DNA of 33,433 nucleotides from Candidatus Zixiibacteriota bacterium (GCA_014728145.1 WJMC01000076.1:1-33433); one strand, 5' to 3'. Positions 10,155 through 23,434 are shown, counted from the stretch's first letter. Made by a program: numbers and translations. Notes: a model not told the origin generated them from the sequence alone.

Positions 10155-11333
10155 TTAATTCAATTCTTTGACGATAATATCCGAAATTCTTGAAGCGCCT
10201 TCAAGTCCGAATTTCGTTGTTTCGAAAATCAGGCGTTTGCTTCTGGCACGATAGTCCTGAACGAAACGATCTAAACCGGAACGGATATCGTCGTTAGATA
10301 TATCATAGAGCAAGCCATGTTCTCTGGCAAATTCACGATTGAGAGGAGCGAAACTTCCGAAGTCGGGCGTCAGTAAAATCGTCGGGAAGCCGAGACCGAC
10401 CGTCCAGTTTATACGTTCATGAGCGGCCATAATTATTATATCAGCAGTTTCCAAAAGTGACAGCTCCAGAAGTGTCAGGTTCTCTCGCTCGGGCAGGCCG
10501 AATACTATCAGTTTCGATTCATTTCGATTGAACTTTTCGATATCCGCCTCGGGATTGAATTCAGCCAGTTTTCCTTTCATCCAGTTGACCATGCGATGAT
10601 CGCATCCGGCTGACAGGATGACCCGTCCGAGCCTGCCGGTAAGAATATGTCCGATAGCCGAAATAATCTGCTCCTGATGGTAACGCGGGTATGCGCCGGA
10701 AGTGAAGAACGCGAATGTCGGTTCCCGGCCGGCTTCGATACGCCGGCTTCTGTTTTCCCGTAGTTCATTGTTTTTTGATGCGATCTCGGGTTCGAGCACC
10801 AGGCCGGTGATCTCAAACTGTGCACTCATCAGGCCGGCCGCCAGCATTCTGTCCTGCGTGATTTCAAGCGGTACGAAGATCTTCTCAGTGCGCATTAGAT
10901 CGAATTCGACCGGCCACGCGATTTCACCATGTACATACCAGACCCGGCAGATATCCGACAGAAGCTGTGCCAGAAGCGGATGGGCGACTAAAACAACGCC
11001 ATCGTAACCGGTATACTTTCTCCTCAGGTCGCGGCCGAGATATTTCACGATCATTCCGCTCTGGACAGAGGATTTGCGGTTTTTCCTGAGGTTGTTGTAA
11101 AAACGCGAAACCAGGCCTCCTCGGCCACCCGCACGATACATCCGAGCCACCATCTTCCAGGCCATCCGCGAAAAACCATGTGATTCCTTGAAAACGGATG
11201 TCACCGCCAGTTTTTCGGGAGTGTCTTCCAGTTTTGGCCGTAACATCCGTAGAACTGAATCGAGATAGTTTGGATGCCCCCGGCCGATATCTGTATAGAG
11301 TGCTGATACCTGTTCAGGTAAGTTCTTACCCAT
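10155..11333 (-). CDS. GT-B-like glycosyltransferase-family protein, function unknown
   Basis: A 392-residue soluble protein with no signal peptide or membrane segment. The N-terminal motif TDIGRGHPNYL (14-24) is like the glycine-histidine loop that opens GT28/MurG and MGDG-synthase-type GT-B enzymes. Two Rossmann-like halves can be imagined, the second starting near TFAFFTSGAYPRYHQ. A late acidic segment, ETADIIIMAAHERINWTVGLGFPTILLTP, sits where nucleotide-sugar enzymes bind the donor. No catalytic residue can be named with confidence, and a UDP-GlcNAc epimerase-like role is an alternative. It lies 63 bases after the receiver-kinase gene and nine bases before ggt, both on the same strand. 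The start ATG has no clear ribosome site. Confidence 0.6.
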   Translation of the reverse strand: MGKNLPEQVSALYTDIGRGHPNYLDSVLRMLRPKLEDTPEKLAVTSVFKESHGFSRMAWKMVARMYRAGGRGGLVSRFYNNLRKNRKSSVQSGMIVKYLGRDLRRKYTGYDGVVLVAHPLLAQLLSDICRVWYVHGEIAWPVEFDLMRTEKIFVPLEITQDRMLAAGLMSAQFEITGLVLEPEIASKNNELRENRSRRIEAGREPTFAFFTSGAYPRYHQEQIISAIGHILTGRLGRVILSAGCDHRMVNWMKGKLAEFNPEADIEKFNRNESKLIVFGLPERENLTLLELSLLETADIIIMAAHERINWTVGLGFPTILLTPDFGSFAPLNREFAREHGLLYDISNDDIRSGLDRFVQDYRARSKRLIFETTKFGLEGASRISDIIVKELN

Positions 11334-11396: not shown

Positions 11397-13112
11397 TCAG
11401 ACCCTGATCCTGGCGATTTCGGAATCGTCCTGACGATTTTCTTCAGAAGGAGCTTCGAGAGGGAGTTTGATGGTGAAGATGGTACCGCCTTCGTTTCCAC
11501 GGCGGACTTTGATTTTGCCATTGTGGTTGGCGACAACTTTGGCGCATACGATCAGTCCGAACCCGTGGCCCTCGGATTTGGTCGTAAAGCGGGTGGTGAA
11601 AGCTTTGTCGACAAGATCCTGGGGGATGCCCGGACCGTTGTCGCGTACTTCGATTACAACTTCTTCTTTTTCAGGATCAAAATTCGTATGGATATCGATT
11701 TTAGAATCATCATGCTTCTTCAAGGCCTGCGCGGCATTGTTAAGGATGTTGTAAAAGAGCTGTGACAGCTGGCTCGGATCGGCCATCATGGCAGGAGTAG
11801 AGGTGTCCAGGTACTTGTTCAGCTTGATCTCGCGGAAGCGCTTTTGAGGTGATAAAAACGACACGATATCTTCAATCAGTTCGTTGAGATTGATGCTCTG
11901 GATTTCGGTTTTGAGATTGGCTGAATCAACCAGCCCCGATGTGAAGCGTGTCATCTGGTCGAGACTGCCGTTGATGCTCTCGATATACTTTTCCACCTCC
12001 TGCATATTTTCGATCTTTGCCTTGTAGCTCAGAATCTCAAAATTTGAGCGCACGATATTGAGGAAGTTATTGAGTTCGTGCCCGATCTCAGCCGACATGA
12101 TTCCCTTGGTAGCCACTTTCTCAAGGTTGACGATATCATCGTGGAGCTTTTCGAGCTCCGACAACGCTTTCTGGGATTCCTCGAACAGGGCGATGTTTTC
12201 TGCCGCCAGCGATATCAGGGAGAGTACAATCGACAGCAGTTTCAGGTCGCGGTCGTGGAGTGGTTCCTCGCTCGATTCCTGCAACAGCAAAACGACGTGA
12301 AAGTGATTTCTACTGTTGACAGCCAGGGTCGTAACAGAGGCATCTTCCCGGAAAAATCCGGCATAAGATTCAGCCTCGGGAATTACTTTTATCAGGTTTG
12401 CAAAGAATTCATTCGAAGTCATCCCGGTTGTTCGAAGAGGTGACTCGACCTGGAAACAGCTTTCGATTTCTCCGGCCCGCATCATCCGCGAGAGCATCTT
12501 GAATGCGCCTTCCTTGACATTTTGAGTGGCGGCCAAATCGAGCTTGCTGGAACGAGCGTCCCAGGCGGCGATCATGCCAACCTCCAGACTGCAATTCAAA
12601 AGCGCCAGCCCCAAAGACAGTTTTAACAGGCTGTCACGGTCACCGACATTGTAAAGCACCTCCATCAGGTCAGAGAGACGTTTCAAATCCTGCCCGCCAG
12701 AACTTTCCTCCAGGCGGGTCTTTTTGTCGGTCGCTTTTTTTATGGCGTTACGAAGCTCGGTAAGTTCGAACGGCTTCATGATATAGTCATAGGCGCCGGT
12801 CTTGATCGCCTCCTTGGCGGTGTCAAGACTGGCGTAACCGGTCATGAAAACCGTTCCCAGATCGGGGTCGATCTTCTGCGCTTCACGCGCCAGGGTCATG
12901 CCGTCCATATTGGGCATCTTGATGTCGGTCAGTAAAAAGTCAAATTTCTGGGAATTCAGAAGTTCGAGTGCTTTAAGCGGATCATTCGAAGTCGTTATTT
13001 CATAGCCCTCGGTTTTGAGAACATCCGAAGCGATATTTAATATGATCTGCTCATCATCTACGATAAGGATCTTGTATTTTCTGGATTTGCTGTCATCCAC
13101 AATGGCACTCAT
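11397..13112 (-). CDS. Hybrid response regulator / histidine kinase (REC - GAF-like - HisKA - HATPase)
   Basis: A 571-residue cytoplasmic signalling protein. Residues 13-130 form a receiver domain with acidic pocket D19-D20, phospho-acceptor D63 (LLTDIKMP), T91 and K113. Residues about 145-310 look like a GAF-type sensor. A short coiled coil follows. The dimerisation domain carries the phospho-histidine H345 in AEIGHELNNF. The ATPase domain has the N box (N456-N459), DNGPGIP (491-497) and GHGFGL (515-520). A receiver at the front of a kinase suggests that its activity is set by phosphate from another kinase, most simply the membrane kinase upstream (inference). Its ATG overlaps the stop of the preceding receiver gene as ATGA. 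There is no DNA-binding domain. Confidence 0.92.
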   Translation of the reverse strand: MSAIVDDSKSRKYKILIVDDEQIILNIASDVLKTEGYEITTSNDPLKALELLNSQKFDFLLTDIKMPNMDGMTLAREAQKIDPDLGTVFMTGYASLDTAKEAIKTGAYDYIMKPFELTELRNAIKKATDKKTRLEESSGGQDLKRLSDLMEVLYNVGDRDSLLKLSLGLALLNCSLEVGMIAAWDARSSKLDLAATQNVKEGAFKMLSRMMRAGEIESCFQVESPLRTTGMTSNEFFANLIKVIPEAESYAGFFREDASVTTLAVNSRNHFHVVLLLQESSEEPLHDRDLKLLSIVLSLISLAAENIALFEESQKALSELEKLHDDIVNLEKVATKGIMSAEIGHELNNFLNIVRSNFEILSYKAKIENMQEVEKYIESINGSLDQMTRFTSGLVDSANLKTEIQSINLNELIEDIVSFLSPQKRFREIKLNKYLDTSTPAMMADPSQLSQLFYNILNNAAQALKKHDDSKIDIHTNFDPEKEEVVIEVRDNGPGIPQDLVDKAFTTRFTTKSEGHGFGLIVCAKVVANHNGKIKVRRGNEGGTIFTIKLPLEAPSEENRQDDSEIARIRV

Positions 13113-13486
13113 CGAGGTTTAACAAGTTTTTCGGCCTGCTTCAGAGTTTTCTTGAGTTCCGTCAACTCGAATGGTTTTGCCAGGCAACACAATGCGCCCA
13201 TCTGGTTTGTCTTTTCCGCCAGCTTGTCCGGCAGGCTGTCGGTCATGACAAAGCAGATATCGGGATCGATCTCCCGTGCTTCAATAAAAGTGTCGAATCC
13301 GTTTTTGCGCGGCATATGAATATCACAGATTACCAGGTCATAGCTGTCGGACCTGATTTTGTCTATAGCCTCAACTCCATCGTTGGCTTCATCGAATTCA
13401 TACCCCTCCGATTCGAGAACATCACACAGGAAGCGCCTGATGATCGGAGTGTCATCGACAACCAGTACTTTTTTGATTTCAGACAT
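13109..13486 (-). CDS. Stand-alone receiver (response regulator) protein
   Basis: A 125-residue single receiver domain with no output domain. Residues D11-D12, phospho-acceptor D55 (LVICDIHMP), T82 and K104 are all present, so it should be phosphorylatable. It resembles CheY/Spo0F-type phosphate shuttles. Its last codons overlap the start of the receiver-kinase gene by four bases (ATGA), and it sits 108 bases after the membrane kinase stop. It may carry phosphate between the two kinases (inference). The ribosome site before its ATG is weak. Confidence 0.9.
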   Translation of the reverse strand: MSEIKKVLVVDDTPIIRRFLCDVLESEGYEFDEANDGVEAIDKIRSDSYDLVICDIHMPRKNGFDTFIEAREIDPDICFVMTDSLPDKLAEKTNQMGALCCLAKPFELTELKKTLKQAEKLVKPR

Positions 13487-13594
13487 ATATCGGAACTCGA
13501 TTTAAGGACCTGAAAGATTGTAATACCTACACTATTTATCGGCAGGAAAAGCAAATCTTTACTTATCAGGCTGAATATTTAATCAGATTCCGGG

Positions 13595-15286
13595 TTATTC
13601 AACATCCCTAATCTGTTCCGATTCTGTTTCAGGTTGAGGCGGTTGTTCGGTAGTACAGGCTTTATCCAAAGGCAGAACCAGCATGAAGGTCGTGCCCTCG
13701 CCGACCCTGCTCTTGACCAGTATATCGCCCTGGTGCTCCTTGATGATGCCGTAAGAAATAGAAAGCCCGAGACCGGTACCCTTGCCGACTTCCTTGGTTG
13801 TATAGAACGGTTCGAAGATTTTGTTCAGAACCTCAGGCGGTATACCACATCCGGAGTCAGTGAATTCCACCTCGACACAGCCAGTAAATTCGCCCACCGG
13901 CTTGGCAAAACGGGTTGCGATGAGGAGCTTGCCTCCCTCTTTCATGGCATGTTCAGCATTGATGATCAGGTTCGTGAATACCTGCTGGAGCTGGCTGGCG
14001 TTGCCGTTATATTTGGGGAGATCGGGATCGAGCTGTTTTTCCAGTTCTATGTTTTTCATGTCGAGCTGATGCTGTACGAATGTCAATGTTTCCTCGATCG
14101 CCTCGTTGAGGTCGAATGGTTCGAAGTCCTCCTTGGATGAGGTGCGCGAGAACTTCAGGAGATTTTTGACGATCTCTTTGCAACGACGGGCCTGCTGTTC
14201 AATATCGCCCAAGAAACGGCATTGCGATTCGATGTCCTCCTCGGTCATCTCGGTTGCTTTCTTGCGCGAAATCTTTTCGAGGGCGTATTGCGAATAACCC
14301 AGGATTCCGCCCATCGGGTTGTTCAATTCGTGGGCGACACCCGCCGCGAGTTGCCCGATAGCCGCCATTTTCTCCGACTGGATCAACTGGTCCTGGGCAT
14401 TTTCCAGTTCGCGCGTGCGTTCCGCAATCTTCTGCTCGAGAGTACGGTTGTACATCTCGACCTCATGGCGGTACTTGCGAAGCGAGTCGGTCATCTTGTT
14501 AAAAGATACAGCCAGTCTGGCGATTTCGTCGGTGGACTTGACCGGAACCTGGTGCGAGAGATCGCCCGAGGCGATCCGCTCCGTGACTGACACGATATTT
14601 TCGATCGGTTTGATCGTGAAATTGACCATGGTGATCGTGAGGACAATCGCCGCCATGACAACCAGCGTGGTCAGAATAATTGTCATCCAGACCATGCGCG
14701 ATATGTCTTTTTCCATCTGGAGAAGAGAAATGCCCAGGCGCGCCAGCCCGATCGGCTCGGCCTTGACATTGCCGCCATTCAAACCGGTCTGGACATTGCC
14801 CAGTTCTTCGCGTGCCAGGCCTCCCTCGACTGAATACTTGAAGACCGGATAAGTGAATTCCATCAGGTTGTAGTTGAGGTTCTTCAGCCGGCGAATATCG
14901 ACCGAGACACGTTTCAGATTCAGAAGATTTTCAGTATTGCCGGTGATCAGTTCATTCATGTCGAGCGAATCCTGGAGCGTGGAGACCTGGGCTATCAGGT
15001 CACCCTGGCTGTTTTGCACGGTCACGAATACGAAGTCTTTTTCGAAGGCGAGAGTTTTCATGAGGTCCTTGAGGATCATCTCGGACTCGATCATGACGCC
15101 GTATTCGCAGTTGTTGGCCAAAATCTTGATCAATGATTCACCGCGTTTTTTCAGCTCGGTCATCATGTTTTCTTTCTGGCTTTTGATCAGTGAACCGACC
15201 AAAATAGCCGAGGTCAGAATGATCAGGGCTGAAATCGCCGCCACTGCCTGGAAACGCAGGGATGTCACCTTAAACAACCGCCTCAT
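13595..15286 (-). CDS. Membrane sensor histidine kinase (TM - periplasmic sensor - TM - HAMP - HisKA - HATPase)
   Basis: A 563-residue transmembrane kinase. TM1 spans about 13-35. The periplasmic sensor spans about 36-197; its segment NNCEYGVMIESEMILKDL resembles CHASE8-like sensors. TM2 spans about 198-223, the HAMP linker 224-275 (IKPIENIVSVTERIASGDL) and a coiled coil 275-308. The kinase core has H319 in GVAHELNNP, the N box at N443, DSGCGIPP (477-484) and GKGTGLGLS (501-509). Its ATG overlaps the stop of the binding-protein gene by four bases, so the two are translationally linked. The simplest model is that the periplasmic binding protein presents a ligand to this kinase (inference). The C-terminus ends shortly after the ATPase domain, with no receiver. 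Confidence 0.94.
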   Translation of the reverse strand: MRRLFKVTSLRFQAVAAISALIILTSAILVGSLIKSQKENMMTELKKRGESLIKILANNCEYGVMIESEMILKDLMKTLAFEKDFVFVTVQNSQGDLIAQVSTLQDSLDMNELITGNTENLLNLKRVSVDIRRLKNLNYNLMEFTYPVFKYSVEGGLAREELGNVQTGLNGGNVKAEPIGLARLGISLLQMEKDISRMVWMTIILTTLVVMAAIVLTITMVNFTIKPIENIVSVTERIASGDLSHQVPVKSTDEIARLAVSFNKMTDSLRKYRHEVEMYNRTLEQKIAERTRELENAQDQLIQSEKMAAIGQLAAGVAHELNNPMGGILGYSQYALEKISRKKATEMTEEDIESQCRFLGDIEQQARRCKEIVKNLLKFSRTSSKEDFEPFDLNEAIEETLTFVQHQLDMKNIELEKQLDPDLPKYNGNASQLQQVFTNLIINAEHAMKEGGKLLIATRFAKPVGEFTGCVEVEFTDSGCGIPPEVLNKIFEPFYTTKEVGKGTGLGLSISYGIIKEHQGDILVKSRVGEGTTFMLVLPLDKACTTEQPPQPETESEQIRDVE

Positions 15287-16245
15287 TTGTAGATCTCCTT
15301 GGAAATGTCCACCAGCGACTGATCGATTTCGATGCCGAGCTGATTGGCGGTTTTAAGGTTAATGTGAAGATAGATAACTCCCGGTGGAGCCAGGGGCAGT
15401 TCACCTATGGGCGTACCCTTGAGATGGCTGGCCGCGAGTTCACCGGCTTGACGGCCGATATCTTTGTAATCGTAATTGAGCCCCAGCAGTGCGCCACTCT
15501 TGACGAAATTTGGCGAAAATCCCATGATCGGTTTGCCGTTACGGAGGGCGGCCAAAATCATGAAACGGGTTGCCTGGGGCGTATAGATCTGGTCGTCGGC
15601 AGTCGTCCAGATACCGTCGACAACCCGGCAAAGCGAATCCAGCGCTTTAGGCAACTCCTTGTCGGAATTGATCTTGATTGCATGAAAATCGAGATTCAAC
15701 TGCGGGGCTACCCGATAGGCTTCTTCGATCAGCGAGGCGGTATTGGCGGTGTAGATAACCCCCAGCTTCTTCAGCGAGGGGTAGACCATTTTGAATTTTT
15801 GAAACTGGATATCGACCGGAATATCCAGTGTGCTTCCGGTAATTCGGACGCGAGAAGAATCATCGGGACTTATTATCCCGGAGGTGGTTGGATTGAGGAC
15901 CGTCGAAAAAATCAACGCCTTATCTGGAAATGTTTCCTTTATATATTTAGTGCTGGGCGAACCGACTGAGATAATCAGGTTCGGATTGAGCACATTGATT
16001 ATACTTTTTAATTTGGCTTTGCCTTCGGACTTAAAATTAATTTCCTCGATTTCCGTCTCGAGGCCGGAGTATTTTAAGGATTGGCGGATCCCCTTGACAG
16101 AACGCGAGGTGGCGTGAGTCGAATCCGAGCAGACGATTAGAATCAGTTTTTTAAGCGAGTCCGTATTCTGGGCAAAACCTGCCGTGCTTACCACTAGCAG
16201 ACAGAGAGCCAGGCTGCAAAGCGACTTCAGTAAACTTCTAAACAA
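15283..16245 (-). CDS. ABC-type substrate-binding protein (TrpX/DUF534 family), signalling context
   Basis: A 320-residue periplasmic binding protein. The signal peptide runs to about residue 25 (CLLVVSTAGFAQ). The rest matches the ABC_sub_bind (PF04392) fold: LILIVCSDSTHAT, NLIISVGSPSTKYIKETFPD, then PSLKKLGVIYTANT and KSGALLGLNYDYKDIGRQAGELA, which is typical of this family. Members of known function bind tryptophan or similar small molecules; the ligand here is unknown. The start is TTG at 16243-16245, with a GAGG site nine bases upstream, and no ATG occurs that would keep the signal peptide. No permease or ATPase gene lies beside it; a histidine kinase follows instead, overlapping by four bases. 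Confidence 0.85.
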   Translation of the reverse strand: MFRSLLKSLCSLALCLLVVSTAGFAQNTDSLKKLILIVCSDSTHATSRSVKGIRQSLKYSGLETEIEEINFKSEGKAKLKSIINVLNPNLIISVGSPSTKYIKETFPDKALIFSTVLNPTTSGIISPDDSSRVRITGSTLDIPVDIQFQKFKMVYPSLKKLGVIYTANTASLIEEAYRVAPQLNLDFHAIKINSDKELPKALDSLCRVVDGIWTTADDQIYTPQATRFMILAALRNGKPIMGFSPNFVKSGALLGLNYDYKDIGRQAGELAASHLKGTPIGELPLAPPGVIYLHINLKTANQLGIEIDQSLVDISKEIYK

Positions 16246-16613
16246 TTACAGGTCCTCTGCTTATATGAAACGTAAGCGTCTGTAAAACGGGACTATAGAT
16301 CCCCTTCATCTGGCAACAGATTGAACAAAAACTGATCCTATAACCGCAGTTTTTGGAAATAATCAATTCCGGTCACAGATTCTTTTCATGACAAAATGGT
16401 CATTGCTTATATCGGCAATTTGAATTTTGACCTTACGATGGAGCCGGGAATTTTTTCTGATTAAACATGTAAAATTCCCTTAAAAATATTTCCGGGATGT
16501 CGATATCAGATATTGAAAATAGAATCTCTGTCGTTTGCTGTGTCATAACGTCAGAATTGCACCCGGAAGTAAAATGCCCTGTTACGAATAAATTAAATAT
16601 GAGGAGCCCCCGT
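16246..16613. promoter_or_regulatory. 368-base divergent control region between the binding-protein/kinase run and the TonB-receptor operon
   Basis: No gene is supported here. The region must hold the promoters of two diverging transcripts. One 16-base dyad is visible: ATGAC (16388-16392), six bases, GTCAT (16399-16403). It has the form of an operator but may be chance. An in-frame open stretch from 16497 extends the receptor frame upstream, but that extension reads like non-coding DNA and lacks a signal peptide. The true start is placed at GTG 16614. Confidence 0.4.
16601..16606 (+). promoter_or_regulatory. Ribosome binding site deciding the GTG start of the TonB receptor
   Basis: GAGGAG ends seven bases before GTG 16614. 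It overlaps the possible ATG at 16599, which rules that start out. The next ATG (16626) would be 19 bases away, which is too far. Confidence 0.65.
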
Positions 16614-19253
16614 GTGAAAAATGCCATGAAACTAAGCTGTCTGGTGTTTGTCCTGTTACTATTGACAGCTTCTTTACTTCATGCCGGGACCTCTGGAAAG
16701 ATCGCCGGAACCGTTTACAGTGCGGAAACCGAGGAAGAGCTTCCCGGAACCACGGTACGAATTCCCGAGCTGGGATTTGCCGTGGCTTGTGATGCCGATG
16801 GAGAATTTTATCTGATTAATGTCCCTGTCGGTACATATACTATTGAGGCTACCCTGATCGGTTACCAGACGGTCACCAAGACCAATGTAAAGGTTCTGGT
16901 GGATTTGACAACACCGGTTGACTTCTACCTGGTCCCCAAGGAACTGTCATCTGATAGCGCTGTGATCGTCGTGGCTGAACGCGATCCGATTCAGGAGGAT
17001 GTCAGTTATTCCGAGAATTGGCTGACGCGTGAAGAAATCATTCGCATGCCGAACTCATCTTCAGTACAGGACTTGATCGCCAATATGGCCGGAGCGGTGG
17101 TCGATGGTGACGGAAGCCTGCACCTGCGAGGCGGTCGTGACGGAACCATAAGTTACTACTTTGATGACACCAATATCCAGGATCCTTTTACCGGACGAGC
17201 CGGAACCAGGATTTCACCGGAAGCTTTGGAAGAGCTGTCGGTTGTCTCGGGTGGATACCTGGCCGAATACGGCGAAGCGCTCTCGGGTGTTGTAAATGCG
17301 CTCACCCAGGAGGGCGGGAACAGTTATTCCGGCAAGCTAAAACTATCTGACGGCCTGGCGACCCCGTATGATGTCAATACCGGAGAGTTCGGTGATCTGC
17401 GCCGAAACGATCGCAACACCTATGTTTTCAACCTGGGCGGTCCGGTGCCGATGCTTAAAAATAATCTGGATGCGCGCTTTTTCACTTCGAGTGAATATCG
17501 CGATCTCGAAGGCTACCTCCCGCATAACCGGCTGATCTCATTTTCTCAGACCAGCAAATTGAATTTCAAGCCGGTTCCCAGCTTGAAGTTCAACCTGTAC
17601 GGGAATTACTATCGGGCGCAAAGGGAGCGTTACATTCATCGCGATGTCAACGACGTTTCCTATGATTTCAATCTCGATGGCGCTGGGCTGATCAAAAACC
17701 TCAGCTATCGCTATGGAGTCAAAGCCAGCTATACATTTTCACCCAGTCTCATCTTTAATGTCAGCTACAATCATTTTTATACCCGAACCAAGCTGGCCCC
17801 GGAACATCTCTTCGATACCTACTGGGATCAATGGCCGGGATATTCCGAGGATGAAAACGGTGTCTATAACGGCACGATTCACGAAAACAATTATCAGCCA
17901 AACTATATCGGCAATACATGGGCCGGGTTCACGGACAGTTCCGACTTCTATCCTGTTTATTCATATCGAAGAAATAGCTATAACAGTTTCTCGACTGAGC
18001 TGATAAGCCAGGCCAATAAATATAACCAGATTAAACTGGGACTCGAGTATAGGGTAAATGACCTCAGCTGGGATCAGAAACAGTTTTTCAATTCGCAGCC
18101 GTACGGTGAAAAATATGACGTTACTCCTCATTACGCGGCAGGGTATATCCAGGACAAAGTCGAGCTCGGATACCTGATCATGAACGCCGGCGTACGTTTC
18201 GATTATCTCGATGCCGCTATTGACTACTGGGATGATCCTGTTACAAAGGAAAGTAAAAAGACAGCCAAACCGAAAACCGAGGTGTCGCCCCGTTTCGGAA
18301 TGTCATACCCGATTGGAGAGAATTCGGTTATTCACTTCAATTACGGTTTCTTCTACCAGGTGCCTCTGTATATGTACATGTTCACAAACCTCCAGGGTGA
18401 TTTAAACACCGGCTTCCCGATCGTCGGTAATCCGGATATGGATCCCGAGAAGACAGTTGCCTACGAGGTGGGCTGGAATCATCTTTTGACAGAAGATATC
18501 ACCTTCAAGATGATCGCATATTACAAGGATGTCTCGAATCTGACCTCGGGCCGATTAATCGAATTCCCGGGTGGTTCTTACACCTATTATACCAATGCTG
18601 ATTATGGTTCTGTAAAAGGTCTCGACCTGATAATGGTCAAACATCGCCACGGTTCACTTTTGGCGGGATCGGTAAACTATTCCTACATGATGGCGATGGG
18701 CAACTCATCAGATCCGAACGAGGGCTACTACAATTATTATACCCGTGATAACTCCCCGCCCTGGCCTGACCGGGAATATCCGCTGGCCTTCGACCAGCGC
18801 CATAAACTGGCGGTCAATGTCGATTTGAGTATCCCGCGTGATTATAAATTCAAGCTCTTTGGCCTTACTATGCCGTCGGCCTGGGGATTCAATACCGTGT
18901 TTAACTACGGGAGCGGACTGCCGTATACTCGAACGAACAACCAGGGCGACCGAATCGGATCACCCAATTCCGGCAGGTTGCCGTCATATTTCAGGGTTGA
19001 TATGCGTTTTGTCAAAGATATCCCGCTGAAACTCTCGTCCTCGAGCCAGATGTCATTTTTTGTAGAAGTCGAGAATCTTTTCGACCGTCGTAACATCGTC
19101 AACGTTTACACCAATACCGGTGAAGCGGATAATGACGGCCTGGCCTCGGGCCTCTCCGAAGCGGATCAGGAGCTGTATGAACTTATGAACAAAGACCCCC
19201 AAAACTATGACACCCCGCGCACCCTCCGCTGGGGTCTTGAACTGTTATTCTGA
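16614..19253 (+). CDS. TonB-dependent outer-membrane receptor with carboxypeptidase-regulatory N-terminus
   Basis: A protein of about 879 residues in the TonB-dependent receptor family, imported to the outer membrane for uptake of a large or scarce nutrient. The GTG start gives a good signal peptide (about 1-24, ending LLHAG). Residues 28-110 form a carboxypeptidase-regulatory domain (GKIAGTVYSAETEEELPGT). Residues 117-125 (VIVVAERDP) lie where a TonB box may be. The plug covers about 135-235 with LHLRGGRDGTISYYFDD and YLAEYGEALSGVVN. The rest is a beta-barrel of alternating strands, with MSYPIGENSVIHFNYGFFYQ and the C-terminal strand TLRWGLELLF ending in an aromatic residue. No substrate can be read from the sequence. 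The next gene begins 14 bases on. Confidence 0.9.
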   Translation: MKNAMKLSCLVFVLLLLTASLLHAGTSGKIAGTVYSAETEEELPGTTVRIPELGFAVACDADGEFYLINVPVGTYTIEATLIGYQTVTKTNVKVLVDLTTPVDFYLVPKELSSDSAVIVVAERDPIQEDVSYSENWLTREEIIRMPNSSSVQDLIANMAGAVVDGDGSLHLRGGRDGTISYYFDDTNIQDPFTGRAGTRISPEALEELSVVSGGYLAEYGEALSGVVNALTQEGGNSYSGKLKLSDGLATPYDVNTGEFGDLRRNDRNTYVFNLGGPVPMLKNNLDARFFTSSEYRDLEGYLPHNRLISFSQTSKLNFKPVPSLKFNLYGNYYRAQRERYIHRDVNDVSYDFNLDGAGLIKNLSYRYGVKASYTFSPSLIFNVSYNHFYTRTKLAPEHLFDTYWDQWPGYSEDENGVYNGTIHENNYQPNYIGNTWAGFTDSSDFYPVYSYRRNSYNSFSTELISQANKYNQIKLGLEYRVNDLSWDQKQFFNSQPYGEKYDVTPHYAAGYIQDKVELGYLIMNAGVRFDYLDAAIDYWDDPVTKESKKTAKPKTEVSPRFGMSYPIGENSVIHFNYGFFYQVPLYMYMFTNLQGDLNTGFPIVGNPDMDPEKTVAYEVGWNHLLTEDITFKMIAYYKDVSNLTSGRLIEFPGGSYTYYTNADYGSVKGLDLIMVKHRHGSLLAGSVNYSYMMAMGNSSDPNEGYYNYYTRDNSPPWPDREYPLAFDQRHKLAVNVDLSIPRDYKFKLFGLTMPSAWGFNTVFNYGSGLPYTRTNNQGDRIGSPNSGRLPSYFRVDMRFVKDIPLKLSSSSQMSFFVEVENLFDRRNIVNVYTNTGEADNDGLASGLSEADQELYELMNKDPQNYDTPRTLRWGLELLF

Positions 19254-19267
19254 GGGAGGAGGATATA

Positions 19268-21913
19268 ATGAAGATTCTTAGATTATCCTTGATCATCCCG
19301 GCGATAATGGTTCTCCTTGCGACCGGCGGAGTTGATGAGCTGGTGGCCGGCACTGCCCAGCAGAGCTCACTGCCACCAACCGAACTGATCGACTATGTCA
19401 TCCACAGCAAGGGCAATATCGTCACCGCGGTCTTCAACTGGGGACTGATTGGCGGTTTTTCAGATGTGCCCTCAGGAGAATGGCCCAAGGGATCGGGGAG
19501 AAACTATATCGGCGAACTGAAGTACTGGATGGGTGCCACCCTTCCCAATGGCGATACGGTGGTGGCCAACGCTTCCGAAGATTTCAACCCGGAAATCGAT
19601 GTAGCTGTTTCGCTGGACCAGACTATTCATTTTTCGACTGACAGCACCCGTTATGATTATGATCCCTCCGACACTGTCGGCCTGGGAGTATCCGCTCCGG
19701 CTTACGGCTGGAGACATTACGATCTCGATACTGACAGCTGGATTTACAACCGCAAATACAATCCCTGTGACAGCAGTTTTGTAACCTGCGGTCCCATCGC
19801 CCAGCAGGAAAGCCAGTACATCATGAATGATGAGCGACTCGGCTATGCCGCCCTGGGTGTTATGGTTTCACAAACTATCTATCAATGGAATTACGATTAC
19901 AACAAAGATATAATGTTTGTGGAACTGGAGATCGAAAACGTTTCTGACAACGATTATACCGATTTTGCTTTCGGTCTCTACGTCGATATCGATGTGGGCG
20001 GATGGTTCGAAGGTGAAAACGGCCGACTTGGCGATTTGGTCGCTTACGACAGCGCTGAGAACCTGGCCTGGATATACGACCAGGACGATTACGACCCCGG
20101 CTGGGGAGCTTCGGTTGTGGCCGGTCGGATGGGTACCAAGTATATCGAAACTCCCGGCGGTCGCGGTATGACCGGATTCCGTACCGGGATCTGGGACAGC
20201 CTGCCGGATACCGATCAGGGTCGTTTCGCGCTTCTTAATTCCGAACAATTCGACGATATCCTGCCTCCGGCGGATCAGTATTATATCCAGTGCACCAACG
20301 GTATCGAGCTGTCCTCCGGTGATGTCGTCCGGGTGGTCTACACCCTGATTGCCGCCCAGACTGATGAAGAAATGGTTGAGAAATCTCAGATGGCACAAGT
20401 TGTATACGACAACTTCTTTACCGGTCCGGAGCCTCCGCCTCAGCCGGGCCTGCGAGCTGAAGCCGGGGACAAAAAAGTCCACTTGTACTGGGGTAATGAT
20501 GCCGAGGATGCGCTCGATCCGCTTTCATGCTCTGAAGATTTTACAGGTTATAAGATTTTCCGATCCACCAATTTCGGTGCCACCTGGGGGCCTTTGACAA
20601 ATAATCCGGATGGCTCTCAGGGGCCCGACTATATCCCGCTGGCGACATTCCGCAAGGATGAGACCACGGGCATGATTCGCCACAGCTATGTAGACACAAA
20701 TCTCGTCAACGGTTTTGAGTACTGGTACGCCGTGGTCGCCTTCGATGAAGGTGATACAACGATCTCACTGAAATCACTCTCTTCCGCTCGTGGCCGACCG
20801 GGCGAGGATTCCTCCGCCGTGAGAGTTGTTCCCCGTACGGATCCGGCAGGGTATTACCCGATCCAGCAGACGGTCGAACATCGGTACAACGGCGATGACA
20901 AGAAAAGCGACGGCAGTATAGCGGTTGAGGTTTTTGATAAGTCTCAGTTCGACGGAAATGAATATAAAGTAGTATTCGAAGAACAGCCCCTGCAGACATA
21001 CTGGCACTTACTGGATGACGTCACCGGGGACACACTGCTGACATCCCAGACAGACCAAAATGCCGATCTTCAAGAGGCTCAGATCGTCGATGGCCTCCAG
21101 GTTCTGGTCACCAACGGTGAGCGGGAACCGCGTGACATGGCCCAAACAGGATTTTCCGGGGGCGATACTACCGTCTCAATGATGCATTTCTTCGGTTCGG
21201 TGGCGGAGGTGTTCGGGTATCCGCGGGGCGGGGATATTCATTTTCGCTCAAACTACGAGATTCGATTTACCGCCACGGGCTCTCAGGGTTACTGGTGGTG
21301 GGATGATGTCACACCGGTACAACTGCCCTTCGAGATCTGGAACACGTCTCTCGGCTACCAGGTCATCGCTGAAATCGGGGACTTTGAATATGACCAGGAA
21401 TGGGATCCTGAAGTTGGTGACTATATCGTGATCAACAACACTCCCTATGATGGCTCGCCTCACCCGGAAGCGTTTCCGTACCAGATGAGCTGGGTGTTCC
21501 GTTTCGATACAGCGGCTTATGGCCAGACCGGTGATGTCTACACGATCGAAGGTGCGCCCTTGAATTCTGCCAATGACGAGTTCTATTTCACCACGCCCGG
21601 GATCGATACAGCCACGGCTCAAAACCAGATGGATCAGATCAAAGTCGTACCGAACCCGTACCTGGCCTACGCAGACTGGGAGCATGAGGCGGGTGAAAGA
21701 AGAATCGAATTCATTCATCTTCCCGATGATGCCACGATCAGGATTTATACCTTGGCAGGTGATCTGGTGGTGACTTTGAAAAACAGCAATGATGGAACAG
21801 TGGCCTGGGATTTGAGATCTGTCAATGAGCAGGGAATAGCGCCGGGTATTTATCTCTACCATGTCGAGTCACCTTTCGGTGAAAAAATCGGTAAATTCGC
21901 GATAATCAAGTAG
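19268..21913 (+). CDS. Large secreted protein with FN3-like domain and type IX-like C-terminal sorting domain
   Basis: An 881-residue predicted secreted protein with a signal peptide (about 1-28, ending LVAG). The first 380 residues are Asp/Tyr/Gly-rich, beta-type and unassigned. A fibronectin III-like domain at about 390-500 is recognisable: KKVHLYWGNDAEDALDP, then TGYKIFRSTNFGATW, then GFEYWYAVVAFD. The last 90 residues (KVVPNPYLAYADW, then ATIRIYTLAGDLVVTL, then GIAPGIYLYHVES and a KIGKFAIIK tail) look like the C-terminal sorting domain of type IX secretion cargo. The GGAGG ribosome site before ATG 19268 is strong. It sits between a TonB receptor and a PorV-like gene, the latter being the partner needed for such cargo in Bacteroidota. 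The sorting-domain call is by resemblance. Confidence 0.72.
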   Translation: MKILRLSLIIPAIMVLLATGGVDELVAGTAQQSSLPPTELIDYVIHSKGNIVTAVFNWGLIGGFSDVPSGEWPKGSGRNYIGELKYWMGATLPNGDTVVANASEDFNPEIDVAVSLDQTIHFSTDSTRYDYDPSDTVGLGVSAPAYGWRHYDLDTDSWIYNRKYNPCDSSFVTCGPIAQQESQYIMNDERLGYAALGVMVSQTIYQWNYDYNKDIMFVELEIENVSDNDYTDFAFGLYVDIDVGGWFEGENGRLGDLVAYDSAENLAWIYDQDDYDPGWGASVVAGRMGTKYIETPGGRGMTGFRTGIWDSLPDTDQGRFALLNSEQFDDILPPADQYYIQCTNGIELSSGDVVRVVYTLIAAQTDEEMVEKSQMAQVVYDNFFTGPEPPPQPGLRAEAGDKKVHLYWGNDAEDALDPLSCSEDFTGYKIFRSTNFGATWGPLTNNPDGSQGPDYIPLATFRKDETTGMIRHSYVDTNLVNGFEYWYAVVAFDEGDTTISLKSLSSARGRPGEDSSAVRVVPRTDPAGYYPIQQTVEHRYNGDDKKSDGSIAVEVFDKSQFDGNEYKVVFEEQPLQTYWHLLDDVTGDTLLTSQTDQNADLQEAQIVDGLQVLVTNGEREPRDMAQTGFSGGDTTVSMMHFFGSVAEVFGYPRGGDIHFRSNYEIRFTATGSQGYWWWDDVTPVQLPFEIWNTSLGYQVIAEIGDFEYDQEWDPEVGDYIVINNTPYDGSPHPEAFPYQMSWVFRFDTAAYGQTGDVYTIEGAPLNSANDEFYFTTPGIDTATAQNQMDQIKVVPNPYLAYADWEHEAGERRIEFIHLPDDATIRIYTLAGDLVVTLKNSNDGTVAWDLRSVNEQGIAPGIYLYHVESPFGEKIGKFAIIK

Positions 21914-21925
21914 GCGGGCAGGAGT

Positions 21926-22939
21926 ATGAACATGAAAAAATATATATTGATTATACTGACACTTCTGCTGTTCTGTTTCGGCCAGGTATCAGCAGATGAA
22001 TTTTCCAAGGTTGGAACAGCCGGCGCTCAGTTTCTGAAGATCGGTATGGGCGCTCGCTATATCGGTCTGGGTGAAGCGGCTACTGCAATGGTCGATGATG
22101 TCTACGGCCTGTACTGGAATCCGGCGGCATTGTCATCGCTTCAACAGTCGCAGGTCGCCTTTACCTCGGTCGACTGGGTGGCGGGTATACGGCTGAACTA
22201 TTTCGCTTTCGCTTATCCGGTGCGCGAGGATATGACGCTCGGGTTTGCCCTCGATGTTCTCTCGGTGGGCGATATGGAAGTTACTACCGTTTACAAGCCG
22301 GATGGCACCGGACAGACCTTCGATGCCAACAGCGTCGCGCTTCAGGCAGGTATCTCGAAACAATTGACTGACCGGTTTGCCTTTGGTGTCAATTTCAAAT
22401 ATGTATCGGAACAGATCTCTGAACAGCATTCGCGCGGTTTCTGTTTCGATGTTGGCGCACTGATGTACACCGGTTTTAAATCGCTCAGGCTGGGAATCAA
22501 TATCTCGAATCTGGGACCCGATCTGCATTTCGACGGTAATGAACTCGACGAAAAACTTAATCCGGATCCGGATAATCCGAATCAAGCAGAGGTCGATTAT
22601 GAATACGCTACCGATAATTATGATCTGCCGCTCATGTTCCGTGTAGGACTGGCATATGATCTTATGGACGACACCCGCAACCGCTGGACATTTTCGGTCG
22701 AAGCCCGAGATCCCAGCGACAATATCGGGCAGTTTTCTGTCGGCAGTGAGTATGGTTTAAACGAGATGTTCATGCTCCGTGCCGGGTATAAATTCAACTA
22801 CGAGGAGGAGGGACTTACCCTTGGCGGAGGACTCAACCTCAATCCGACCCCGCGGACGAATCTCAGCTTTGATTATGCCTGGGCTGATTTCGGTCGATTG
22901 CAATCGACCCATCGCTTTTCGATCGGGCTGAAATTCTAA
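21926..22939 (+). CDS. PorV/PorQ-family outer-membrane beta-barrel protein
   Basis: A 337-residue outer-membrane protein of the PorV/PorQ (UPF0164) family. A signal peptide ends at QVSADEF. The N-terminal block KVGTAGAQFLKIGMGARYIGLGEA and the DVYGLYWNPAALSSL motif are the hallmarks of the family. Alternating strands follow, and the end RFSIGLKF is a barrel terminus. PorV in Bacteroidota holds type IX cargo at the outer membrane so that the sortase can process it. It starts 12 bases after the secreted cargo-like protein, with GGCAGGAG ahead of the ATG. The cluster order fits a cargo plus receptor plus shuttle unit, though PorQ-type lipid-binding roles are possible too. Confidence 0.87.
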   Translation: MNMKKYILIILTLLLFCFGQVSADEFSKVGTAGAQFLKIGMGARYIGLGEAATAMVDDVYGLYWNPAALSSLQQSQVAFTSVDWVAGIRLNYFAFAYPVREDMTLGFALDVLSVGDMEVTTVYKPDGTGQTFDANSVALQAGISKQLTDRFAFGVNFKYVSEQISEQHSRGFCFDVGALMYTGFKSLRLGINISNLGPDLHFDGNELDEKLNPDPDNPNQAEVDYEYATDNYDLPLMFRVGLAYDLMDDTRNRWTFSVEARDPSDNIGQFSVGSEYGLNEMFMLRAGYKFNYEEEGLTLGGGLNLNPTPRTNLSFDYAWADFGRLQSTHRFSIGLKF

Positions 22940-22999: not shown

Positions 23000-23434
23000 A
23001 TGAAACCTTTACCACCTGATCAAGCGAAAGGTAGTGAATCTCCGATGAACGATCGCCCCGCAGATTCGAGAGGTACTATTCTTTTAATTGACGACGAGGA
23101 AATCATTCGTCAGCTCGGACGAAATATCCTCCAGAAGGTCGGTTATGAAGTCATTACTGCAGAAGATGGAAGAAGTGGAATTGAGGTCTACCGCGAGAAT
23201 CGGGACAAAATCGATGTCACGATCCTGGATATGTCAATGCCGACTATGAGCGGCGAAGAGACCTTCGAACATCTCAAGTCAGAATTTCCCGATGTGCGTG
23301 TTCTGATATCCACCGGCCACTCAATGGAGAGCGGGATCGGAGGGCTTATGGATCGCGGTGTCTACGGTCTGCTTCAAAAACCTTATCGCGTGGGCGAGTT
23401 GACCAAGAAAATCGAAGAAGTCATGAACATGTGA
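23000..23434 (+). CDS. Stand-alone receiver (response regulator) protein
   Basis: A 144-residue single receiver domain with a roughly 25-residue leader (MKPLPPDQAK). Phospho-acceptor D77 (VTILDMSMP), acidic pair D31-D32, T105 and K127 are all present. There is no output domain. It lies 60 bases after the PorV-like gene on the same strand, and the transcript ends at the hairpin at 23466. AGGA eight bases before the first ATG supports that start; ATG 23045 is a weaker alternative. The partner kinase is not adjacent. Confidence 0.88.
   Translation: MKPLPPDQAKGSESPMNDRPADSRGTILLIDDEEIIRQLGRNILQKVGYEVITAEDGRSGIEVYRENRDKIDVTILDMSMPTMSGEETFEHLKSEFPDVRVLISTGHSMESGIGGLMDRGVYGLLQKPYRVGELTKKIEEVMNM

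Follow-up and report, generated by a model that had tools for sequence, protein, structure and literature searches.

Signalling kinases that make use of a periplasmic binding protein are known one by one. In LuxP-LuxQ, TorT-TorS and AioX-AioS, the binding protein gene adjoins the gene for a membrane kinase with a Cache/PAS-type periplasmic sensor, and no dedicated transporter is present; AioX is described as a binding protein that has become a signal protein (PMC5908839). In YfiBNR (TpbB), a sensor of the CHASE8 type is combined with a periplasmic partner and an outer-membrane component; in one described YfiBNR-like operon with a CHASE8 cyclase, the cyclase is repressed by periplasmic YfiR (PMC8294551).

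The cluster described here, from Candidatus Zixiibacteriota bacterium (genome 3.12 Mb, 95% complete), belongs with LuxPQ, TorTS and AioXS among the binding-protein-dependent kinases and shares with them the gene arrangement, the type of sensor and the lack of a dedicated transporter. In contrast to these systems, its binding protein belongs to the PF04392 family, its output is through stand-alone receivers and a receiver-kinase, and an outer-membrane receptor arm is linked to it and has promoters of the same, sigma-28-type class. A sensor of the CHASE8 type, a periplasmic partner and an outer-membrane component are shared with YfiBNR; the enzyme is a histidine kinase and not a diguanylate cyclase, the periplasmic partner is a PF04392 protein and not YfiR, and the outer-membrane component is a TonB receptor and not YfiB. 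In a literature search, no relevant paper was found on PF04392 proteins with kinases, on Zixibacteria with TonB receptors and kinases, or on FliA in connection with modules of this sort, and no description of an outer-membrane arm and sigma-28-type promoters on a binding-protein-dependent kinase was encountered. The reading preferred here, to which we give slightly better than even chances, is that of a binding-protein-dependent kinase module whose genes are expressed along with those of its outer-membrane arm as part of a motility-type regulon, with output via stand-alone receivers.

Results

Gene content and conservation of the locus

The window, i.e., the whole stretch of 33,433 nucleotides that was analyzed, corresponds to contig C76 of the assembly. 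Among named relatives, Candidatus Zixiibacteriota assemblies are the nearest, the three closest with 63-65% identity in the binding protein. The following features are relevant:

11397 to 13112, minus strand: receiver-kinase HK2, consisting of a receiver (D63), a middle domain without Pfam match, HisKA (H345) and HATPase; no transmembrane segment
13109 to 13486, minus strand: stand-alone receiver of the second type (MTDSxPD, D55, K104)
13595 to 15286, minus strand: membrane sensor kinase HK1, consisting of a transmembrane segment, a single Cache (CHASE8/sCache_4-like) sensor, a transmembrane segment, HAMP, HisKA (H319) and HATPase
15283 to 16245, minus strand: periplasmic binding protein of PF04392/TrpX-like fold (PF04392 E 2.6e-33), with signal peptide and without lipobox
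16409 to 16435, minus strand: candidate sigma-28-type promoter toward the binding protein gene (TAAGGTCA-N11-GCCGATAT, 12/16)
16497 to 19253, plus strand: TonB-dependent receptor with CarboxypepD_reg domain, plug and barrel; translation probably starts near 16599
19268 to 21913, plus strand: large secreted-looking beta/Fn3-like protein (881 residues) with a type IX-like C-terminal tail
21926 to 22939, plus strand: PorV/PorQ family outer-membrane protein (NF033709, 226 bits, cut-off 90)

All four minus-strand genes lie where the initial annotation had placed them, and both 4-base ATGA overlaps it reported (binding protein/HK1 at 15283-15286; receiver/HK2 at 13109-13112) are present. As it had also noted, only receivers and the second kinase follow HK1, and a DNA-binding domain was not found in any of the four genes. 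As a unit, however, the interval 11397-16245 was drawn too narrowly: it comprises the four genes and omits the divergent plus-strand genes, together with the shared region that contains the sigma-28-type promoters.

The binding protein was found in 100 of 132 Zixibacteria genomes, mostly as a single intact gene and, on a few contigs, as fragments. When the surroundings of 96 binding protein loci were collected and their gene order compared, the order was conserved, and the exact 4-base overlap with HK1 recurred in 71/87 loci, a pattern beyond chance that bears out the proposed coupling of binding protein and membrane kinase. Homologues of the HK1 sensor, searched for with the sensor alone, occur in 90 genomes and directly adjoin the binding protein wherever coordinates were compared; in these cases, they are not scattered without it. 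Vertical inheritance by itself can preserve gene order. No Rosetta-stone fusion of binding protein and kinase was seen. In one locus (L037:7678-9060 and the preceding ORF; the same locus as L003:8933-10620), HK1 is split over two overlapping frames, due to a frameshift or an assembly error. The gene after HK2 in the window (10155-11333) encodes a protein of 392 residues without Pfam or NCBIfam match, with 42% identity to its counterpart in L003/L037.

The outer-membrane arm

The receptor encoded at 16497-19253 gave profile matches to the structures of PhuR, CirA and FepA, and its plug domain was matched as well. Among Zixibacteria loci with at least 3 kb of upstream sequence (n = 78), the receptor arm is on the same stretch in 75: directly upstream in 71, downstream in three and further upstream in one. 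The linkage of the two arms persists through two rearrangements. In L110-L112 the receptor arm is positioned behind HK2, and in L115-L121 the genes for receptor, secreted protein, PorV, binding protein and kinase mostly point in the same direction. The receptor, the secreted-looking protein and the PorV/PorQ gene belong with the kinase cluster as one larger unit.

The protein encoded at 19268-21913 is probably exported by the type IX route. Its sorting tail remains below the model threshold (TIGR04183, 20.4 bits, cut-off 23), CHU_C matches 10/16 of its orthologues, and the genome itself encodes a full SprA translocon (SprA 690 bits, cut-off 200). A search with its structural model (mean pLDDT 70) returned partial matches only, to a GH94-like sandwich, Fn3 and PorZ. 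No SusD match was obtained when the gene was probed as the second half of a SusC/SusD pair beside the receptor, and the protein is not a second TonB receptor either: it lacks plug and barrel matches and has the type IX-like tail. ExbD proteins are encoded in the same genome. In family f8, a flagellin-family gene is located beyond the PorV gene (L096:17985-18839; also L095 and L097).

Sigma-28-type promoters in the shared region

Words were counted over 71 divergent intergenic regions between the two arms. CCGATA was present in 66/71 (10 expected) and AAACTTGA in 33/71 (1 expected), and these are the halves of a sigma-28 (FliA/WhiG-type) promoter, T[CA]AAGTTT-N11-CCCGATAA. The published sigma-28 consensus is TAAAGTTT-n11-GCCGATAA (PMC2859248; PMC7286023). 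Candidate sites were scored out of 16, with the spacing set to 11, either C or A accepted at position 2 and C permitted as the first -10 base. Sites scoring at least 13/16 were found toward the binding protein in 50/71 regions and toward the receptor in 31/71, 22 of which had both; L104 and L109 have sites of 15/16. Such scores were reached by 8/710 shuffled regions and by 5/633 control genes of the same loci, none of the latter at 14 or more. The strict pattern TCAAGTTT-N11-GCCGATAA, at a score of at least 14, occurs 595 times per Mb in the divergent regions versus 0.45 per Mb elsewhere in the loci.

These enrichments are partly circular because the words were discovered in the same regions. 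What is not circular is the agreement with the published consensus and spacing, the rearranged loci and the flagellin genes. In L110-L112, which were outside the discovery set, the receptor gene has a 14/16 site in all three cases, and the binding protein has a site scoring 11 to 13. Of the 16 main flagellin genes, 12 have a site scoring 12 to 14, located 181-216 bases before the start, and FliA was above the cut-off in 123/132 genomes. A genome-wide pattern scan returned 55 sites, compared with 22 for the reversed control pattern (an exact strict promoter pattern proved too narrow); genes downstream of such sites include those for a PilT-like ATPase, a prepilin, a PilZ protein, FHA proteins and PAS kinases. 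In three related genomes, an FHA-domain gene (L249:1644-2339, L266 and L268:1641-2336) has a conserved sigma-28-type site ∼110 bases upstream.

In the window, the site is weak (16435-16409, minus strand; 12/16, a score that 7% of shuffled regions reach), and its position is that of the sites in L037 and L038. Sigma-28-type sites are absent in family f19, although the module genes are present, and in the loci outside the phylum. No short inverted or direct dyads were enriched in the shared region. The likeness to the motility regulons of sigma-28 (FliA) and WhiG lies in the promoter; the unit controlled here is an envelope sensor module and not parts of a pilus or flagellum.

An unlikely, if still serious, alternative to the motility-linked module is a transport-coupled loop, in which the kinase would sense a periplasmic ligand delivered by the TonB receptor and adjust uptake genes via a DNA-binding regulator encoded elsewhere, with an output other than motility. 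The linkage of receptor and kinase arms and their common promoter region are consistent with such a loop, as is the HK1 core, which resembles AtoS/ZraS kinases, the partners of NtrC-type regulators. However, no sigma-54 enrichment was detected in the shared region (observed mean 14.54; shuffles 14.48), the conserved promoter class being sigma-28, and the receivers that recur over the loci are devoid of output domains.

The HK1 sensor and the binding pocket

CHASE8 matched the sensor of 11/19 HK1 orthologues and sCache_4 that of 10/19; for the window's own HK1, only a weak sCache_4 match was obtained. The sensor (residues 35-195 of HK1) is predicted to fold as one Cache domain with a membrane helix on either side (mean pLDDT 86). 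Its best matches among solved structures are WalK, CitA, KinD and DctB, with LuxQ lower in the list. Because Cache folds are common, these matches indicate the type of sensor, not its partner. The Cache domain could itself bind a ligand. In family f13 (L110:7504-9621 and L123:4443-6560), HK1 contains an insert of ∼145 residues before HisKA, which is probably a PAS domain.

The binding protein was compared, at its pocket positions, with the aromatic-amino-acid binders 3LKV, 3LFT and 6HNI. Serine or threonine at position 96 and D217 are kept in 91/91 proteins each, S244 in 81/91 and Y260 in 75/91; therefore, a ligand pocket is likely. In CD0873, E263 and Y279 determine the choice of ligand (PMC6816091), and the equivalent positions are Ser and Tyr in the binding protein studied here.

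These data also bear on the possibility of a YfiR-like monitor, in which the binding protein would inhibit the CHASE8 kinase through its conformation and would report the envelope or redox state without binding a small ligand. The membership of the HK1 sensor in the CHASE8/sCache family and the precedent of the repressed cyclase (PMC8294551) speak for it; conservation of the very positions that align with an aromatic-amino-acid pocket speaks against it, and we consider it improbable.

Receivers, kinases and the path of phosphate

Stand-alone receivers without output domains recur over the loci, and many loci contain two of different types, marked by MTDSxPD and ISGYSS motifs; the window operon retains the MTDSxPD type only. 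A relative encodes a receiver of the first type at L049:12520-12897. The solved chains closest to this receiver (13109-13486) are the receiver of RcsC, Spo0F and CheY, and it lacks the CheY tyrosine. Beyond the PorV gene, a further stand-alone receiver is encoded (23000-23434), which L006 and L039 have too. It was considered as the missing first receiver and dismissed, since its identity to the operon receiver is no more than 27% and it belongs to neither type.

The catalytic residues reported as intact in the initial annotation are conserved: H319 in 79/79 HK1 proteins, D55 in 115/115 receivers, and H345 in 64/64 and D63 in 63/64 HK2 proteins, the one exception being a gap. A linear relay, running from the binding protein via HK1 and the receivers to HK2 with its output elsewhere, had been proposed from the gene order and these residues. 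No HPt domain was detected in the four genes, and without an HPt protein at the locus a linear two-kinase phosphorelay is unsupported. Together with the fact that HK2 has an ATP-binding domain of its own, this means that a branched network of kinases and receivers fits equally well. In addition, HK2 was not seen in the loci of family f19. Thus, the linear arrangement is quite improbable.

Phylogeny and context of the binding protein

The assignment of the binding protein to the TrpX/DUF534 type holds at the level of the family (PF04392) and not beyond, given that the score for the TrpX equivalog model is far below threshold (101 bits; cut-off 390). A tree was built from Zixibacteria binding proteins and relatives from other phyla. 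All ten proteins adjoining an ABC permease are in one branch (17 rows, support 100/97), which is separate from the main Zixibacteria and kinase-linked proteins; the deepest split of the tree is weak. One odd Zixibacteria row, L122, is placed inside the transporter-type branch, on a long end branch. Transporter contexts of the family were encountered only outside the phylum. Within the Zixibacteria loci, neither a permease nor an ABC ATPase was seen next to the binding protein, in agreement with what had been claimed for the window, and hence no transporter is regularly paired with it. The resemblance to TrpXYZ and CD0873, the transporters of aromatic amino acids, is confined to the fold and the pocket positions, and it is offset by the lack of permease and ATPase, the separate branch and the residues where selectivity is set. 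It follows that the protein does not form part of a transporter. That it serves an ABC transporter encoded elsewhere and is placed here by chance is hardly credible: the family does include the transporter proteins TrpX and CD0873, but the branch is a separate one, and a genome usually has just a single copy of the gene, tied to that of the kinase.

In several kinase-linked relatives from outside the phylum, TonB receptors are likewise encoded nearby (L168, L173, L176, L177, L179 and L189); in L177:4500-12909, TonB receptors, a PhnD-like binding protein and a PF04392 binding protein are followed by a CHASE8-type kinase and a receiver. The family was encountered in other settings as well. In L194:3271-11000, four PF04392 binding proteins are encoded near a dCache-HAMP adenylate/guanylate cyclase, and L196:4122-7046 encodes an apparent fusion (974 residues) of an ABC permease with two tandem PF04392-type binding domains. 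In the genome that contains the window, a protein of 831 residues (L002:61-2556, contig C117) combines a weak PF04392-like binding domain (23.3 bits, cut-off 25.9) with an outer membrane efflux domain of the TolC type (148 bits).

Discussion

For the binding-protein-dependent kinase module preferred here, the following course of events may be envisaged. The outer-membrane and signalling arms would be expressed jointly, driven in most of the phylum by sigma-28 (FliA/WhiG) class promoters that stand back to back. On entering the periplasm, possibly via the TonB-dependent receptor, a solute would close the binding protein, which in its closed form would dock on the Cache domain of HK1 and thereby change the activity of the kinase. 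From HK1, phosphate would be passed to the stand-alone receivers and probably also to the receiver of HK2, which would tune HK2. The receivers may then act as soluble outputs of the CheY/PilG kind, on motility or surface behaviour and not on DNA. Points that speak against this reading are the weak promoter match in the window, the module genes of family f19 that have no such promoter, the CheY tyrosine missing from the window receiver, a Cache domain that could bind a ligand by itself, and the capacity of vertical inheritance to preserve gene order.

Since a flagellin-type promoter is found in most of the phylum, the cluster is probably a movement-linked sensor rather than a nutrient transporter. 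No flagellin was found in two genomes that carry the module, one of family f13 and one of f14; a flagellar output, therefore, cannot be general, and pili or another surface behaviour are as likely a target as flagella. The control of type IV pili by WhiG in Rubrobacter (PMC8325347) provides a precedent for a pilus target. Going further, one might propose that the whole phylum has a chemosensory route alongside that of classical chemotaxis, leading from receptor and surface protein via the binding protein and the Cache kinase to receivers that steer flagella or pili, the whole unit being under a motility sigma factor; we regard this extension as possible, yet on the whole doubtful.

About three quarters of the genomes sampled from this little-studied phylum retain a unit that includes an outer-membrane receptor and a protein probably exported by the type IX route, and sigma-28-type promoters are present on one or both of its arms in much of the phylum. 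The motility-linked reading would explain why the operon contains no DNA-binding output. The cluster is a concrete candidate for how Zixibacteria couple solutes on the outside to movement or surface life.
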